Part shown: one piece after another, positions 55,297-64,000 of the stretch
Layout: every line of letters starts with the position of its first letter
Numbering within the stretch: position 1 is the stretch's first letter
Notes under the pieces: model-generated
What the model saw: only the letters and a program-made list of their open reading frames with translations
What the model was told of the DNA's origin: nothing
Database searches by the model: none
NCBI GenBank assembly: GCA_016930085.1
Contig: JAFGHO010000085.1
Location: 1 to 64,000, forward strand
Reading direction: 5' to 3'
DNA length: 64,000 nt
DNA from: Spirochaetales bacterium
GTDB taxonomy: Bacteria; Spirochaetota; Spirochaetia; SZUA-6; JAFGRV01
Translations under genes and position numbers: made by a program

Positions 55297-56699
55297 AAAA
55301 CTCGACGTTATGCGTCATCGCCCTGGCCGTTCTTTTTTCCACCGCCCCGATCTCCGGGCAGACACCGGAGAAAATCGAGCAATTCATCTATTCGATTCAC
55401 GCCTTTGACGGGCACAGCTATAAAAAAACCTTTTGCCGAGAAGCTTCCGATACCATCTACTTTCTCGCCGGCGAAGACAATTTTCTATCGACGCGAAAAA
55501 CATTCATTTATTACTGGCCGCTTTCGGATACCTGGCGTCTCGATACGAACATCCTCAATTATCCGATCAAGGGTACCCTCCACATAACGGGGGACAACAT
55601 ACGGCCCGAGGCATACGAAACGGTGCTTTACATCTATACCGACATGCCCGCTTCGCGCGCGGAAAACCGTTCCCCGATACTGCACGCGGGCGCCGACACC
55701 ACGGACGCCTTTTCGAACACCCTGAGGGTTTTGAAAGGTGAAGAGGCTGTTTCCGAATACGCCCGCTATCTTTCCATTATGGAACGGTACGACAGGGAGG
55801 TGGAAGCGTGGCAGCAGCGTGAGCGGGAATACCAGGAATGGAAAAGAAACATGGACAGTAAAATAAGGCTGGCCCGGAAAGAAGGCAAAGACGTTTCGGG
55901 TCTCGTCGAAGAAGTCCAGTCGTATCAGTTTGAATACCCGCCCTCCCGCCCGTCGTATCAGATCAGCCCCCCGCAGGAAGCGTTTATCATCAACCTTCCC
56001 GAAGGCGATTACAGGATGAAACTCGTCGACCCGGAAAACAACATAATCGAGGGATCGGAAAAAACACTCAAGGTTTTCACGAAAAAGCGGGGCAACAGCG
56101 TACAGTACATGTACGCCGCGGGCTCGAAACTCACAAGACATAAAATAACACAGATCGCCGGTTCGGTTATCTATGTCGACGGCAGCTACGACCTTTTTTT
56201 CAGGCCGTCCTACCAGAATGAGGTGAACGAACTCTTTCACGAAAAACTGATGGTCAACGACGCGAAGGGTAATCCCGGGAAAACGAAGTGGATCAGGACA
56301 AAAGAGATTACCACCGCATGGATCGAGAAATCGGTGAACAACGGCCCGTACGGCATCGTGCTTCAGGATTATTTTTACGCGGATCAGGATCCGGAAGCCC
56401 CGCTTGGCTACCGACTCGTCTACTGGGATTCACGGCCGGAAGCCCCCCATGAATACCTCTCGCCCTCCCTGCGGGCGTTCCGTATTCCAATCGACGGAAG
56501 AACCCGGCTCATCGATATCCGCCTGCGGGATATTTCCGGCCGCCTCATCGACACGAGCACCCGCCGCATCCGCCTCGTCAACAAACACTCGCCGCACCTC
56601 CTGATTCTCCTCCTCTGTCTCCTGCCGCTCGCCGGTATGACCGCGATCACGATTCAACGAATGGCCCTTTATGCGGGAAAAAAGCAGAACACGGATTAA
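55293..56699 (+). CDS. secreted/transmembrane protein linked to the ABC transporter
   Basis: The ATGA overlap with the permease couples translation. The product of 468 residues has a signal peptide (ALAVLFSTAPISGQ) and a C-terminal helix (LLILLLCLLPLAGM) followed by a short basic tail, so most of it is outside the membrane. A coiled stretch at about 160-200 (MERYDREVEAWQQREREYQE) precedes beta-strand regions. No family is recognised. It may be a gliding or export accessory part. Confidence 0.75.
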   Translation: MKNSTLCVIALAVLFSTAPISGQTPEKIEQFIYSIHAFDGHSYKKTFCREASDTIYFLAGEDNFLSTRKTFIYYWPLSDTWRLDTNILNYPIKGTLHITGDNIRPEAYETVLYIYTDMPASRAENRSPILHAGADTTDAFSNTLRVLKGEEAVSEYARYLSIMERYDREVEAWQQREREYQEWKRNMDSKIRLARKEGKDVSGLVEEVQSYQFEYPPSRPSYQISPPQEAFIINLPEGDYRMKLVDPENNIIEGSEKTLKVFTKKRGNSVQYMYAAGSKLTRHKITQIAGSVIYVDGSYDLFFRPSYQNEVNELFHEKLMVNDAKGNPGKTKWIRTKEITTAWIEKSVNNGPYGIVLQDYFYADQDPEAPLGYRLVYWDSRPEAPHEYLSPSLRAFRIPIDGRTRLIDIRLRDISGRLIDTSTRRIRLVNKHSPHLLILLLCLLPLAGMTAITIQRMALYAGKKQNTD

Positions 56700-57513
56700 T
56701 CCTTCACCGGAAGCCCTCATAAGTTTCCGGAACGATGTCTGCCGTTTTTTCGAAAAGCACGGACGCCGGCTTCCCTGGCGGACGGCCTGGAAGCCGTATC
56801 ATATCGTGGTCTCGGAGATAATGCTTCAGCAGACACAGGTCGAACGGGTTATCGCGAAGTTCGAGGCCTTTATCGCTTCCTTCCCGGACTTCCACAGTCT
56901 CGATACCGCTTCCATGCGGGAGGTATTGCTTCTCTGGAAGGGACTCGGATACAACAGGCGAGCCTATGCCCTGAAAGAAATCGCGCGAAGGGTCTGCCGC
57001 GACTATAACGGTGTTCTTCCCTGCGACAGGGAATCCCTTCTCCGCCTTCCGTCGATCGGCAGGGCGACGGCGGCATCGATTCTGGCCTTCGCCTTCGACA
57101 GACCGGAAGTCGTGATCGAGACGAATATCCGCACGGTCTATATTTACCACTTTCTCAGGGATCAAACGCGGGTCAGTGACGACGATATCGAATCCCTCAT
57201 CCGGGCGACCATGGACAGAGAACATCCGAGAACATGGTACTCGGCGCTTATGGATTACGGAAGTCACCTGAAAAAACTGTATCCGGAGTTGACGGGAAAA
57301 AGCTCAGCATATAAAAAGCAGTCGAGGTTCGACGGTTCGGACAGGCAGATACGGGGGAAAATTTTGGGGATTGTCGCAGGGGCGGGGTACGCGTCGGAAG
57401 GTAAACTCATTGAAGAGATTGAAGCCGACGCGGAGAGGATTCGCGACATAGCGGGAGTTCTGGTCAGGGAAGGGTTGGTGGTAAAAAAGGGAAACCGGTA
57501 TGAAATCCCTTAA
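56671..57513 (+). CDS. mutY: A/G-specific adenine glycosylase, short form without FeS cluster
   Basis: The protein has 280 residues and overlaps the previous gene by 29 bases. The MutY signature LPWRTAWKPYHIVVSEIMLQQTQVERV and the HhH LLRLPSIGRATAAS are clear. The catalytic Asp of classic MutY (DGN) is Glu-Thr-Asn here. The four-Cys cluster loop is missing. It probably removes A opposite 8-oxo-G, but the Glu and missing cluster make the enzyme unusual. The C-terminal 50 residues form a small winged-helix-like end (IRDIAGVLVREGLVVKKGN). Confidence 0.85.
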   Translation: MREKSRTRINPSPEALISFRNDVCRFFEKHGRRLPWRTAWKPYHIVVSEIMLQQTQVERVIAKFEAFIASFPDFHSLDTASMREVLLLWKGLGYNRRAYALKEIARRVCRDYNGVLPCDRESLLRLPSIGRATAASILAFAFDRPEVVIETNIRTVYIYHFLRDQTRVSDDDIESLIRATMDREHPRTWYSALMDYGSHLKKLYPELTGKSSAYKKQSRFDGSDRQIRGKILGIVAGAGYASEGKLIEEIEADAERIRDIAGVLVREGLVVKKGNRYEIP

Positions 57514-57603
57514 AGGAAGGAAATTACGTGCGGCCGCCGAAAGTCGGCATTTTTTCAATAACATACCGGATAATGGACAGTGGCGGATGAAGTTGACCGT
57601 ATA

Positions 57604-58341
57604 TTAAAAAAGAGCCGCTGAATCATGATCTTCGATATATACTGTTTCCATGCCCGTGTCTTCGCTTATTTTTCCGGTAAAAAATTCCATTATCGGCTTC
57701 TCGGTAGCGTAATGACCCGCCAGAATCAAATTAATATTCGACTCATACGCGTATAATTTTCCAAAATGAATCGCTTCGCCTGAAATAAAGGTATTGATGC
57801 CTATTCCTTTTGCTTCCTTTATCCATTCCGGTCGCGCACCCCATCCGGGTATTATTCCGATATTATCAACCTTGTCATTGTTTTTAAATATTTCCAATTT
57901 GGATTTGAGTTTTTTAGAAAGAACGCCGGACAAATCATCGATATCAAGATACTCCGATGCCGCGATGATTCCTGCCGTGTTATTGAAATGTTTGTGTATC
58001 TTCCATCCGAAAAGGTTATTGAATCCGAGTGCGGTACTATATTCTCCATGCATATCCAAAGCATCATGTGCGAAGTAATGTGAAATATTATATTGTAATA
58101 ACCTCGTCCGTTTTGATTTTACATATTCGGCATCGGTGCTTTCCCAATTCGCATGATGGGTCAACAGGAAATCGATATGTTCATTTATCGCTTTCTCAAT
58201 GACACTAAACGACAAATTCACGGAAACACCGATCTTTGATACGTTTTTCCTTCCACGGATCGTCAAGCCTTCATTATTGTGTTTTTCACCTGTTATTTCA
58301 AGCAATGAGTCCAGATAAGATGTTATTTCTTCTATTTTCAT
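57604..58341 (-). CDS. NIF3-family dinuclear metal protein
   Basis: The protein has 245 residues. NIF3 hexamer motifs appear: DFLLTHHANWES with the metal His pair, LDMHGEYSTALG near the N-terminal core, and late AGHYATEKPIMEF with the His and Glu ligands. Its function is unclear (GTP cyclohydrolase 2-type similarity is disputed). The gene is AT-rich beside GC-rich neighbours, and belongs to the minus-strand run up to 61.5 kb. Confidence 0.88.
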   Translation of the reverse strand: MKIEEITSYLDSLLEITGEKHNNEGLTIRGRKNVSKIGVSVNLSFSVIEKAINEHIDFLLTHHANWESTDAEYVKSKRTRLLQYNISHYFAHDALDMHGEYSTALGFNNLFGWKIHKHFNNTAGIIAASEYLDIDDLSGVLSKKLKSKLEIFKNNDKVDNIGIIPGWGARPEWIKEAKGIGINTFISGEAIHFGKLYAYESNINLILAGHYATEKPIMEFFTGKISEDTGMETVYIEDHDSAALF

Positions 58342-58357
58342 GGCGACGGAAGACCTG

Positions 58358-58783
58358 TCAAAACTGTTTATAAAAATTTTTCTGTTGCTTTCTCATCGTA
58401 TATCCGATTATTTCATAAAATTTATGAGCTCCGTCTCTCTCGTTTCCTGAATTCAGGCGAACGCCCTTGCATCCGTTTGATTTTGCCCAGTACTCAACTT
58501 CATGCATCAAGGCTTTTCCATAACCCGAATTCCTGTATCCTCGTGATACGACCAGCCCCAATATATTCAATAATTTTTCAAAATACAGTACTCTGTAAAT
58601 CTGGCCGTGAACGTATCCTATTACATTGTTTTCTTCAATTTCCTTGACCAATATGACATGATCATTCAGTTTCATCAGTTCTTCAAGATTTTTATAGAAT
58701 TCTTTTTTATCAAATAAATACCCGAGTTCATTCGAGAGTTCGTGTAATTGTTCAGCATCACTTAATTTTACTTTTCGTATCAT
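58358..58783 (-). CDS. GNAT acetyltransferase
   Basis: The protein has 141 residues. The acetyl-CoA loop is VVSRGYRNSGYGKALM, followed by GVRLNSGNERDGAHKFYEIIGY, standard for small GNAT enzymes. The substrate is not predictable. It is AT-rich and 16 bases upstream of NIF3. Confidence 0.88.
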   Translation of the reverse strand: MIRKVKLSDAEQLHELSNELGYLFDKKEFYKNLEELMKLNDHVILVKEIEENNVIGYVHGQIYRVLYFEKLLNILGLVVSRGYRNSGYGKALMHEVEYWAKSNGCKGVRLNSGNERDGAHKFYEIIGYTMRKQQKNFYKQF

Positions 58784-58788
58784 GATGT

Positions 58789-59034
58789 TTACCCGCCTGT
58801 TTTACACAACGGACAAACTTGTGCGACTTCCGGCTCACATGGCGGAGGGGCCGGCAGGCCGCGGAAGTTCATGGACGGCAAACGGTATTCCGGTCTTATT
58901 CCCGTTTTCTCCTTGATTGACTTTATTATTTCATCGCTTTCAATATGATGATAACCGTACAATTCACGAATTTGTTTTCCAATAGTGATTTTTCCGCTTC
59001 CGCACGTTCCATTTACTATTATTATTTCTTTCAT
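58789..59034 (-). pseudogene. truncated P-loop kinase with unrelated tail
   Basis: Residues 1-50 hold IIIVNGTCGSGKITIGKQI, a P-loop of nucleotide or shikimate-type kinases, and HIESDEIIKSI. After residue 50 (near 58884) the sequence changes to a Pro- and Cys-rich tail with a GC-rich DNA composition and a stable hairpin, so the kinase is cut by inserted DNA. Most of the fold is missing and the product is unlikely to work. Confidence 0.75.
58826..58868. repeat. GC-rich hairpin within inserted segment, attC-like shape
   Basis: ACTTCCGGC at 58826-58834 pairs with GCC-GC-GGAAGT at 58858-58868, leaving a two-base bulge. The stem lies in a roughly 90-base GC-rich segment (58795-58884) amid AT-rich genes. 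This shape recalls integron attC sites, but the RYYYAAC and GTTRRRY ends are not present in standard form. Confidence 0.4.
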
Positions 59035-59044
59035 AATACCATGA

Positions 59045-59188
59045 CTATCCTGTCTCCCGTCTTTTCAATAATGCTTGCTTAAAGATTTCACTGTTTTCTT
59101 TTGTAATGCACACGAATGCCCTTTCTGCGTATTGGCCGACTTCTTTCGGACTGCATGTTTCAGGAGAATACGCCGTTTTTTCAATCAT
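59045..59188 (-). CDS. small hypothetical protein
   Basis: A 47-residue frame starts after a very good AGGAGGAAATA site. The sequence (e.g. KEVGQYAERAFVCITKENS) has no family I can name. It stops 10 bases before the kinase fragment start, so both may be co-expressed. It could itself be a truncated gene. Confidence 0.45.
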   Translation of the reverse strand: MIEKTAYSPETCSPKEVGQYAERAFVCITKENSEIFKQALLKRRETG

Positions 59189-59229
59189 TATTTCCTCCTG
59201 CCGTTTCCGGCTTACCTGAAAGAATATAA

Positions 59230-60621
59230 TCAAGCCCGGGCTTTGACTATCGCTTTCTCCTGCCAGACTTTCGATTTCCAGCGGAACAGCATGATGATTC
59301 CCCTTGTCCATTCGTCCATGGAAATCGCAAGCCATATACCGATTACCCCGAATTCGAGGACAAGACCCAGGATAAAAGCAAAAAGCACGCCGATACCCCA
59401 CATGGTGACAATGCCGACCTTTACGGGGAAATCGACGTCCCCCGATCCCTTTAAGCCATTGATAAAAACAAGGTTGAAGGTCCGGCCCGGTTCCAAAAGC
59501 ATGGTAAAAACAACGAGGTTACTGCAGAGACGATACACATTATCTTCCATGGGAAAGATACGGAGGATCGTATTCCTGAGTAAGGACAATGTTCCCGCCA
59601 GAACAAAAGCCAGAATGAAGGAAAAACAAAAATACCTGAAAACATTCCGGTACGCCTCCCCGCTTCTCCCCGCACCGACGAGATAACTCGTTATTATCTG
59701 GGTGCCCTGTCCGGTGGAAAAAGAGAAATAAAAAATAAACCGCGCGAAGACAAAAGCGTAATTATATGCCGGTAAATTGATCTGCGCTTCCGGCGGCAGC
59801 CCGAAATCCATTTGCGCGACGAAAAAATTCATCACTATCATGGCGGTGTTATATGCAAGCGATTCACCCGCGATGGGAACGCCTAGTCGTAGAATCTTTT
59901 TGATTAATTGAAGTTTGATTGTAAAGAAATCCCTAAAACGAAGCGTCATATCCTTTTTACTCAAAATCATGAAAAACATACAGACGGCGGCCAGTATCTG
60001 GCTGAAAACGGTTGAAACCGCCACGCCCGCCACTCCCCATTGCGGAAAACCAAAAGCACCGTAGATAAAACAATAATTGCCGAACACGTTGAGCGCGTTG
60101 GCGATCATATTGATAACCATCGGTTCCCGTGAATATCCGTAAGCCCGTAAAACCGTACTGAAAATGGTATTCATGGCAAGCCCGATTGAAAAGGCGCTGA
60201 AGATGGTGAAATAATCGACGGCGAAACCGTAGCGTATATCATTGAGCCGGTAGAGAGAAAGGATCGGTTTTGCCAGGAAAAACATGGTAAGGCTGATGAC
60301 AATGCCCGTCAAAGCCGATAAAAATACGCTTGTCGTTACCGTCCGTGTAGCCTTTTTTGCGTTTTGAGCGCCGTTGTGTTGAGTAATAATAATTCCGGCG
60401 CCCGAACTGATCATCAAATAGATAAGAGTGATGAAAAACACAAAATTGATATCCAGACCCACGGCGGCCACCGCGTCGTCGCCCATGCGTACGCCGTTTA
60501 CGGAAAGACCGCTTAACATGAATATATCGGCGAACGAGAACAGGAATCTCAGCAGGTTTTCGGCAAGGATGGGGATCGTAATGGTCAGGATATTCATACG
60601 TTTCGATATGGAATTTTCCAC
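59230..60621 (-). CDS. MATE-family multidrug efflux protein
   Basis: The GTG at 60621 gives 463 residues with the family opening NSISKRMNILTITIPILAEN and about 12 helices. The frame extends upstream to 60732, but the extra residues are basic and are out-of-frame sequence of a neighbouring fragment. Typical MATE features are GVAGVAVSTVFSQ and GLKGSGDVDFPV. It exports cationic compounds with Na+ or H+. Function by family only. Confidence 0.92.
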   Translation of the reverse strand: MENSISKRMNILTITIPILAENLLRFLFSFADIFMLSGLSVNGVRMGDDAVAAVGLDINFVFFITLIYLMISSGAGIIITQHNGAQNAKKATRTVTTSVFLSALTGIVISLTMFFLAKPILSLYRLNDIRYGFAVDYFTIFSAFSIGLAMNTIFSTVLRAYGYSREPMVINMIANALNVFGNYCFIYGAFGFPQWGVAGVAVSTVFSQILAAVCMFFMILSKKDMTLRFRDFFTIKLQLIKKILRLGVPIAGESLAYNTAMIVMNFFVAQMDFGLPPEAQINLPAYNYAFVFARFIFYFSFSTGQGTQIITSYLVGAGRSGEAYRNVFRYFCFSFILAFVLAGTLSLLRNTILRIFPMEDNVYRLCSNLVVFTMLLEPGRTFNLVFINGLKGSGDVDFPVKVGIVTMWGIGVLFAFILGLVLEFGVIGIWLAISMDEWTRGIIMLFRWKSKVWQEKAIVKARA

Positions 60622-60893
60622 GGCTTTGTTGTCCTCTTGTGTTTTCGGATCGAATGAGACGCGACGTCGTTTATCTCTTCGTGTTTTCGCCTCGATGTGA
60701 GATAAAATATTTCCGCTCCCCGGTTTTTCCATTGCGTCAATTTCTCCGCCGCTTTGCCAATGGGAACATATGACCTGTAATCATGAATCGACGGATCATT
60801 ATCTTTTACCTGCTGCACGATTTGTTCTCTGCTGTGTCCGATACCATTGTTATGCATAATTATCGTTCCTTCGGTGAATATCAATATTTTCAT
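60594..60893 (-). pseudogene. truncated N-terminal fragment of an unnamed, possibly HAD-like protein
   Basis: The frame starts at 60893 with KILIFTEGTIIMHNN and reads VPIGKAAEKLTQWKNRGAEIFYLTSRRK, which has the look of a small alpha/beta hydrolase family N-terminus with a Thr-Ser-Arg-Arg core. After about residue 77 the frame becomes unlike any protein and overlaps the MATE 5' end. The 3' part seems lost at the junction with the MATE gene. A HAD-like assignment is a guess. Confidence 0.5.
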
Positions 60894-60988
60894 GGCGCTA
60901 AACATATGACTTTTATCTTTCTATCGAGTATTTTATCTTTTTTTTTAAAATCGATCATCTTTAATACAAGATTATCGAAAATATTTAT

Positions 60989-61450
60989 TTAAATATCCCA
61001 TCTGTATCTGCATTTTTTTCTGAAACCTTCGTTATAATCAGGACAATTTATCGGTAAATCTATAATTTGTACGAATTCGGCACCAATAATTTCACAAGTT
61101 CTGCGAGATGCCGTATTCGACGGATCGCATGTAATCCAGATTATATTCATTTTATGATCTTTTGCTACCTGTTTTATCAGTCTGCACGCTTTTGCTGCGT
61201 ATTTATTCCCGCGGTATTTCTCTTCAATTCCATATCCGATATTACCTTCGTATTTTTCTACAAATTCATTTACTCCGATTCTAATACAAATACCACCCAC
61301 TCTTTCTTCCGAATTGTGCAAATAAATATCAAATTCATAAGAAGGTAAAAAACAATTTCCGGTCGAAGGCGCGAGTGATTTATTCATACGCAAATCAATT
61401 TCATTATCCGTCAGGATATTATACGTAATAAAACTGAATTTCTTCATCAT
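60989..61450 (-). CDS. GNAT acetyltransferase
   Basis: The protein has 153 residues. The GNAT loop GYGIEEKYRGNKYAAKACRLI and a later ITCDPSNTASRRTCEIIGAEFV segment match RimJ/L-type N-acetyltransferases. Very AT-rich. The start may be 61450 or 61447. The substrate is unknown. Confidence 0.9.
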   Translation of the reverse strand: MMKKFSFITYNILTDNEIDLRMNKSLAPSTGNCFLPSYEFDIYLHNSEERVGGICIRIGVNEFVEKYEGNIGYGIEEKYRGNKYAAKACRLIKQVAKDHKMNIIWITCDPSNTASRRTCEIIGAEFVQIIDLPINCPDYNEGFRKKCRYRWDI

Positions 61451-61682
61451 ATTCTTCTACAATCAAAAACCGATTTTAAAAATAAAATAACCGTTCTTGA
61501 AATTTATAACAACATTAAAGGGGTTGGCAATGATTTTACTACCTCGAAGCGGTGAAGCGGTTATTGTGCAAACGACAACCGCGCCAAGCATGGGTGCTTT
61601 TTATAAAACATAACGAAGTCTCTCGCAATAATCGACAGGACTATAATACTCCTCCCCGGCAGCTACTCAATCTTCGCGAACG

Positions 61683-62042
61683 TTAATCCACCTCCCCCCG
61701 CGCGCGATGCTTCTTCAATTTTTTTCTTTTTATCGATCTCGCGATTCCCGCGAAAAACCCGACCAGCCCGATCACGAAGAGCACGGGCGGATAAAAATAG
61801 ATAACGCCGTTGGCAAAGGCGGCAAAAAACCAGATCACGGCAATCGCCATAAGGATGATGCCGCCGATGGGGCCGAGATTCAAAATCTTCGATTCGATAC
61901 CGAAGCCCGATCCGATATCGAACTCCCCCGTGCCCTCCATGAGCTTGTCCCTTTTCCGGGAATACTCACGCAGGTCCGCCTTGCAATGCTCGCAGAAACT
62001 CAGGACGGAAGGCGTTTCCTTTTTACACATAGGGCATATCAT
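61683..62042 (-). CDS. zinc-ribbon membrane protein
   Basis: The start at 62042 follows AAGGAGG, giving 119 residues. Two CPxC/CxxC pairs (ICPMCKKE and FCEHCKAD) form a zinc ribbon, followed by two hydrophobic helices (IILMAIAVIWFFAAF and VLFVIGLVGFFAGI) and a basic tail. Such small proteins often interact with membrane assemblies. No partner is evident. Confidence 0.82.
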   Translation of the reverse strand: MICPMCKKETPSVLSFCEHCKADLREYSRKRDKLMEGTGEFDIGSGFGIESKILNLGPIGGIILMAIAVIWFFAAFANGVIYFYPPVLFVIGLVGFFAGIARSIKRKKLKKHRARGEVD

Positions 62043-62143
62043 GAATTCCTCCTTACAGTAAAAAGTCAAAGCGAAAATAATAATGGTTCATACCGCAATA
62101 GACGGTTCCAGGCGAACCGGTATAGATATCCGCCGTAACGTAT

Positions 62144-64000
62144 TTACTTCACCTCGTATCCGCCGTACGGAATGCCGAGCTGATCCAGGACATTTTTTGT
62201 CTTGTCGTAAAAATAATCCGCCTCGTACCCCTTCCATCCCATGGGGTCGGCGTCCGCCGTGTCGTTTTTGTCCTTTCCCTTATACAGGTCGTACAACCGG
62301 TCGTATACCGCCTTGTATTCGCTGAACAGAAAGAGGCGCTTTTCAGGATCGATGAACTCCTTAAGGTACGCCACATACCGGTTCCTGTATGCATCCGCCG
62401 CCAGTATCTTGTCGACCAGCGGCCTTCTCGTACGATCGCCCCAGCTTTCGGGGATGTTGGCGGTATCGAATATATCCTGTTCGATGAACTCGCGGTACCC
62501 CATTTCTCCGTGCCATGCCGTACCCAGAGAAATATCGTAATCATAGGGAATGAAATCGATCTTTCCTTTCCCGGTGAAATACAGGTAATAATTGTTCGCG
62601 AGAAACCGGTAATCGTCGAGATTGCTGATGTAGATGCCCATCGCGAGAAATCTGATGAATTTATCGACCTCGAAATTGTCTTCGATATAATCGATGAAAT
62701 CATCGCCCTCTCTGGTATTGAGGTTATGGATGAAATTAATGAAATCCGAATGAATGCTCGTTTTCGTGTTCGTTTTGAGGTCGTATATCGGTCTGTAATT
62801 GGTATCGAAATCCTTGACACCGACATTGGCACTGCGCACGGTTTCGGGGGTAAGATGGGCACCCTCGTCGAGATAGAGGCATTTATAGAGGTCCCCGTCG
62901 TTGTCGTTGCCGTAACGCCTTTTCAAAAAGGCCTTGTCCACGTGCTCGACGATACCGTAGATACCGTAGTCGACGGTCTTTCCGTCTATCCTGAATGTCA
63001 GTGTCGCAAGCGACATCTTCGGGACGGTCACTCCCACCTTTTCGAGCAGGCGGTAGCTGAACAGCTCGTTTATTTTCGTCTTGTTCGCGTATTTGTCCCA
63101 GGTGTTGTACCTGCTCCACTTGAAATTGAGGGCCTTCATGCCGGCGAAGCGCCGGCTGTTTTTTCGTTCGTATTCGAACGTCCCCTTCTCGAGATCGAAG
63201 GTTTCATCGAATTTTATTTTGAAGTGGGTTTTCTGATACTTCCCGTTTATCTCGGGCAGCCGCCGGGATTCATTGCCCCGCGTTCTGATCCCGACCTCCC
63301 GCAGCACGATTTCTTCTCCATCGGTCTTTTTATAGATGAAGTCCGCCTTTCTGTAATTGCCGGTCCGGTATGGTCTGCCGTCACCCTGATACAACAGCCT
63401 CACCGGGTGCTTCTTTGCGTAATCGAGCATGTCGCCGGTCATGCCGTCCCATTCTTCCCCGCTGATTTCGACGACAAACTCGTGAAACACGTCATCCGAA
63501 AAGACTTCATCGTACAACCGGTCATCGGCTACGGGACTCCTGTTGTCGCCGTTTCTTCCGTAACGGAAGACAAAATATTTCACGGGTTTTCCTTCCCCGT
63601 CGGTTTCTTCTTCCCGCATTATTTTGGAACCCTCGTGGATATAACTTCTCGTCTCGAGAAGTTTCCCTGCCCCTTCGCCCTGCCCGTACGTTTCCCTTCT
63701 CGCAAGCCCCGCTTCGTCATATATATAAAGGTAATAATATTCATCCGCGATTTCCAGATGATCGTTGTAAACGGCGACACTTTCTCTTTCCGGCCGGCCG
63801 TCCCTGTAAATGTAGCGGTGGTGGCCGGTTATCCGGTTATCGCCGTTTTGCACCGTCTTTTCGACAAGGAGGCCGTCCTCATAGACATATTCCCTGATTT
63901 CTTCGATCTCATACTTCCTGTTTTTGACCACCTGCCTGACCGGCCCGTCATCGCCGTATTCGAAAAACCTGATCTCCCTGACGTTTCCTTTTTTACCGTA
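62144..64000 (-). CDS. CotH-family kinase-like protein, 5' end cut by window
   Basis: The frame is open to base 64000, giving at least 618 residues; a GTG at 63931 is internal and not the start. The first part has short repeats such as YDEAGLARRETYGQG and EEIREYVYEDGLLVEK, a YD/MORN-like pattern. The C-terminal 400 residues match CotH: IKFDETFDLE, GIYGIVEHVDKAFLKRRYGND, DGDLYKC, and PYDYDISLG with the metal-binding Asp-x-Asp. Known CotH proteins phosphorylate secreted proteins. A secreted or cell-surface role is likely. Confidence 0.88.
   Translation of the reverse strand, partial: YGKKGNVREIRFFEYGDDGPVRQVVKNRKYEIEEIREYVYEDGLLVEKTVQNGDNRITGHHRYIYRDGRPERESVAVYNDHLEIADEYYYLYIYDEAGLARRETYGQGEGAGKLLETRSYIHEGSKIMREEETDGEGKPVKYFVFRYGRNGDNRSPVADDRLYDEVFSDDVFHEFVVEISGEEWDGMTGDMLDYAKKHPVRLLYQGDGRPYRTGNYRKADFIYKKTDGEEIVLREVGIRTRGNESRRLPEINGKYQKTHFKIKFDETFDLEKGTFEYERKNSRRFAGMKALNFKWSRYNTWDKYANKTKINELFSYRLLEKVGVTVPKMSLATLTFRIDGKTVDYGIYGIVEHVDKAFLKRRYGNDNDGDLYKCLYLDEGAHLTPETVRSANVGVKDFDTNYRPIYDLKTNTKTSIHSDFINFIHNLNTREGDDFIDYIEDNFEVDKFIRFLAMGIYISNLDDYRFLANNYYLYFTGKGKIDFIPYDYDISLGTAWHGEMGYREFIEQDIFDTANIPESWGDRTRRPLVDKILAADAYRNRYVAYLKEFIDPEKRLFLFSEYKAVYDRLYDLYKGKDKNDTADADPMGWKGYEADYFYDKTKNVLDQLGIPYGGYEVK

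Follow-up and report, generated by a model that had tools for sequence, protein, structure and literature searches.

The window analysed here comprises 64,000 nucleotides (positions 1 to 64,000 of contig JAFGHO010000085.1, assembly GCA_016930085.1, Spirochaetales bacterium). At its right-hand end, genes for a NIF3 protein, two GNAT acetyltransferases and a MATE transporter are mixed with gene fragments, and this region is probably the left part of an accessory-gene hotspot that was assembled piecemeal, lacks a recognised mobile element and is decaying. The whole block covers 22.7 kb of the contig (57514-80231), with an approximate left boundary region at 57514-57603, set by gene order in comparison to a related genome (G002), and a right edge near 80231, outside the window. 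On the left it is flanked by a MutY-type A/G glycosylase gene on the plus strand (56671-57513; Pfam HhH-GPD, 47.7 bits), on the right by the genes for glutaredoxin (80232-80513) and ferredoxin-thioredoxin-reductase (FTR; 80520-81029) on the same contig. In G002, which belongs to the same family, 69 bp separate MutY from the glutaredoxin gene, FTR comes next, and all three lie within 1.8 kb. Order and strand of the three genes are equal in both genomes, only that MutY and glutaredoxin are 22.7 kb apart here. Glutaredoxin and FTR form a conserved pair in the relatives, and genes of the block were found at the MutY-glutaredoxin junction in none of the relatives examined, including the surroundings of the junction in G002. 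Accessory genes are thus located between genes that are adjacent in a relative, as observed in one genome, and the hot spot of insertion, which the first-pass annotation had offered as one reading of the region, gained support from this comparison.

Twenty-four open reading frames (ORFs) were listed for the block, all on the minus strand; a plus-strand ORF of 124 amino acids (contig 78678-79052) lies outside these 24. The Pfam assignments present a miscellaneous collection: five GNATs, two methyltransferase-type proteins, DUF3795, beta-lactamase-fold, FMN reductase, GH5, Imm5-like, 4Fe-4S, CBM64/dockerin, CotH, NIF3 and MATE. Four of the 25 PF00583 GNATs of the 5.36-Mb genome were located in the block, where about 0.1 is expected by hand arithmetic, the count being post hoc; the fifth GNAT came from another Pfam search. 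Paired GNATs were also present on contigs C117 and C64. Families of integrases, transposases, relaxases or phages were absent from the ORFs of the block (Pfam on 23 of 24, the 24th being a GNAT). A comparison of positions 57401-80400 with the contig revealed no repeats beyond chance and no flanking repeat, and the window contained neither a detectable tRNA gene nor an Rfam match.

The first six genes of the block, namely NIF3, GNAT, kinase, MATE, an unnamed fragment and a second GNAT, had been described as lying on one strand, and ORFs and Pfam confirmed the minus strand for all of them. Apparently whole are the NIF3/DUF34 protein (57604-58341; 245 amino acids, full length, 112.2 bits over 1-237, GC 0.38), the first GNAT (58358-58783; 141 amino acids, full length, Acetyltransf_1, 60.6 bits, GC 0.35), the MATE efflux transporter (59230-60732; 152.7 bits, GC 0.47) and the second GNAT (60989-61450; 153 amino acids, Acetyltransf_3, 40.6 bits, GC 0.34). 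The gaps between NIF3, GNAT and kinase are 16 and 5 bp. Truncated genes had also been proposed, which was correct for the fragment at 60594-60905 (minus strand, GC 0.42) and is unproven for the kinase-like ORF, a probable remnant. The fragment is a true truncation: it corresponds to the N-terminal ~80 residues of a relative in G012 (contig C4) that has its full 173 amino acids. The name HAD-like is tentative; Pfam gave just a weak LNS2 match. Its DNA match to G012 spans 60688-60893 with 78 % identity, and the DNA match of the MATE gene to G017 is restricted to 59240-60656, which places the junction of the two genes in a stretch of 32 bases, between 60656 and 60688. The alignment with the MATE relative of G017 starts at residue 36, and the true start of the transporter is probably near 60627. 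On the amino acid level the MATE protein shares 80.6 % identity with its counterpart in G017 and 58 % with the one in G012, both from genomes of family f4, whereas AsnRS, a single control gene without a good match in G002, had 67 % identity in both; this incongruence points to a transfer of the MATE gene.

In the kinase-like ORF (58789-59034, minus strand, 81 amino acids), similarity to P-loop kinases is confined to the N-terminal ~50 residues (best Pfam match 22 bits, under the cut-off). The last ~30 residues are encoded by a GC-rich segment of 90 bases (58795-58884), whose existence was confirmed with a GC content of 61 % against 33-47 % in the adjacent genes; the kinase part at 58885-59034 has 0.33. 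Among 98 genomes searched, 12 others contained weak partial matches to the ORF, and the searches for an intact close relative found none. That the segment cuts a kinase gene is therefore plausible, yet unproven. The isoleucine that follows the Walker-A lysine might hint at decay, but this evidence is weak, as adenylate-kinase-like relatives have a glycine at this position. Further copies of the segment, which the first-pass annotation had suggested to look for, do not exist in the genome: it is single copy. Convincing homologues were also absent from 392 genomes of the phylum (best outside match ~36 bases, E 0.003), from plasmids (two 39-base matches, E 0.5), from phages and E. coli, and, by an exact 21-mer, from IMG/VR. 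The plus-strand reading yielded only plasmid matches at E 4-9. The segment has no recognised function and would be leftover sequence between two AT-rich imports.

We suggest that horizontal transfer brought in the genes singly or in small groups, that illegitimate or homologous recombination may have attached them here, and that subsequent deletions would have left the kinase and HAD-like remnants. The block would then consist of ordinary accessory genes without a capture machinery of their own. Towards its right side, the part inside the window continues with a small zinc-ribbon-like protein (61683-62069, minus strand; weak Pfam DZR match of 17.9 bits, below the cut-off) and a CotH-kinase protein (62144-64000, continuing to contig position 64273, minus strand; 131 bits). 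CotH relatives with 69-74 % amino acid identity are present in G002 and G004, in different gene contexts.

Several observations weigh against a hotspot of imported genes. The uninterrupted order MutY-glutaredoxin-FTR was seen in G002 alone: none of 80 named FTR loci had MutY nearby, and in seven other relatives with glutaredoxin and FTR (flanks of at most 1.5 kb) MutY was not beside the pair; all genomes compared lie outside the genus. The genome is a draft, and a misjoined contig is conceivable. CotH orthologues elsewhere in the family indicate that a part of the block is old and not all of it foreign. The gene at the right edge belongs to a dispersed family, which could mean an unrecognised mobile element. 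Finally, GC content and strand bias of the block are unexceptional for this genome. The claimed AT-richness held for most of the six genes (GC 0.33-0.42), not for the MATE gene with its 0.47 compared to 0.49 in window positions 1-57513. A comparison with 400 kb from elsewhere in this genome showed runs of 13-15 ORFs on one strand, as well as 3-kb stretches whose GC content falls to 0.33, thus orientation and AT-richness carry little weight.

As a separate observation on composition, a 3-kb stretch at ~1000-4000 of contig C93 (L226) has a GC content of 0.326, the lowest in 485 kb of this genome.

The contiguous order in G002 alone would also fit an ancestral block that was lost by deletion in G002, which equally counts against a gain at this site. 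The existence of CotH orthologues in the family is in line with a deletion, but the CotH gene of G002 is located on another contig in another context, and the other genes of the block have no equivalents around the G002 junction. The GNAT-rich and AT-rich content and the incongruence of the MATE gene fit a gain. We consider a deletion in G002 rather unlikely. Still less probable is the insertion of a single mobile element, i.e., an integrative element, prophage or satellite, as a whole at the MutY-glutaredoxin junction. One block of 22.7 kb, mostly on one strand, has the appearance of such an element, but its ORFs lack integrase, transposase, relaxase or phage families, tRNA genes in the window and flanking repeats are missing, and the gene content is metabolic and miscellaneous. 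The truncated genes inside the block suggest several events.

The dispersed gene family at the right edge was considered as a mobile unit. The last ORF of the block, beside glutaredoxin (contig C85:79384-79926, L064:18385-18927), is a member of an RHH-like family of 180 amino acids. Of 31 genomes searched, three contain it, with 41 matches here and, in two genomes of the same family, 57 (G002) and 38 (G004), some of the matches being fragments; 28 genomes have none. In the twenty copies compared, the shared sequence begins ~80 bases before the ORF and reaches as far as ~100 bases behind it, and several copies lie at contig ends, as assembly-breaking repeats would. A median dN/dS of 0.19 over 190 pairs indicates purifying selection. 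Searches with the protein against Pfam, PHROGs and PDB gave weak matches only, including an RHH antitoxin model (E 0.09). A candidate motif for terminal inverted repeats, picked after viewing the sequences, matched in at least 9 of 12 positions at the 5' side of 6 of 19 and at the 3' side of 7 of 20 copies, and null windows also reach 9. No convincing target duplication was observed in five copies with both ends placed, and GNATs within 3 kb of a copy (2 of 25) were close to the ~1.2 expected by hand. A role of the family as cause of the block thus lacks support: GNATs are not enriched, the terminal repeats are weak and target duplications are missing. That an undescribed mobile unit of ~0.75 kb, encoding the RHH-like protein and possibly bearing terminal inverted repeats, delimited or imported the block appears very improbable. 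The family may consist of regulators or may represent a mobile unit that has escaped recognition, and its position alone links it to the block. Elsewhere in the genome, a Xer-type recombinase gene directly adjoins an RHH-like copy (contig C23:277-1062 and 1424-1960, L066).

The least credible explanation is one of the two that had been raised initially, a gene-cassette array, here as the relict of a chromosomal integron that lost its integrase and kept the GC-rich segment as surviving attC. In its favour, the genes are small, unrelated and on a single strand, and a 2013 paper (PMC3607928) reported a Treponema species with attC sites and without intI. Uniform orientation and low GC were given up as evidence for cassettes after the 400-kb comparison. 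In the genome, estimated to be 96 % complete, none of seven partial matches to the integron integrase model TIGR02249 exceeded the cut-off of 265 bits. The best one consists of two pieces with 94.9 and 90.4 bits and lacks the model positions 183-239, as expected for a Xer-type recombinase. Among 148 genomes of the class, 41 have a match above the cut-off of this model, G003 of the same family being one of them, which demonstrates that the integrase test works in this group and at the same time gives the relict some background plausibility. A structural attC scanner detected 7, 4, 2 and 1 sites in four of nine integrase-bearing control loci and none in the other five, so that very divergent attC sites could escape it; it found none in the 22.7-kb block (0.10 expected) and none in window positions 1-57513 (0.30 expected). 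Of two stricter or narrower scanners, one reported sites just in locus L214, besides lone matches in L212, L218 and window positions 1-57513. With the other, at its loosest setting, there were seven in L214, single ones in L217 and L210, and one in the block, which is chance-level (0.3 expected, maximum of shuffles 2). The attC-like bulged stem proposed for the segment did not stand up to folding as DNA: on the two strands z was -0.90 and -0.15, and 40 and 77 of 200 shuffles were as stable. The attC core (RYYYAAC...GTTRRRY) is absent from the segment, with both R' and R'' missing, and the gaps between NIF3, GNAT and kinase are too small for an attC. With no integrase over the cut-off, no attC and no repeats in the block and a single-copy segment, the integron was rejected.

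Two observations on integrons in related genomes stand apart from the block. Arrays of attC-like sites of ~65-170 bases were present near integron integrases in L216 (G030), L217 (G401) and L215 (G055). The integrases over the cut-off belong to many families of the class; the 2013 paper (PMC3607928) named Treponema as the only spirochaete clade found with integrons.

The preferred hotspot has parallels in known systems. Oliveira et al. 2017 (PMC5635113) described integrase-free hotspots in which horizontally transferred, variable accessory genes lie between conserved ones. The block resembles them in this respect as well as in the absence of a recognised mobility gene and in the repair gene MutY at its flank. 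Those hotspots are defined by many gene families gained per spot across the strains of one species, whereas the contrast here comes from one related genome. The chromosomal integrons of Treponema (PMC3607928) share with the block the spirochaete host and small genes that are unrelated to each other and point the same way, in a class where integron integrases are common; the block differs by the lack of integrase, attC sites and repeats and by gene gaps too short for an attC.

By the integrase check, the attC check with controls from relatives and the comparison of gene order, a false integron candidate was removed. The block adds one more case of accessory genes gathered next to a gene of DNA repair where no mobile element is visible, and a separate study would be most worthwhile for the dispersed RHH-like family.

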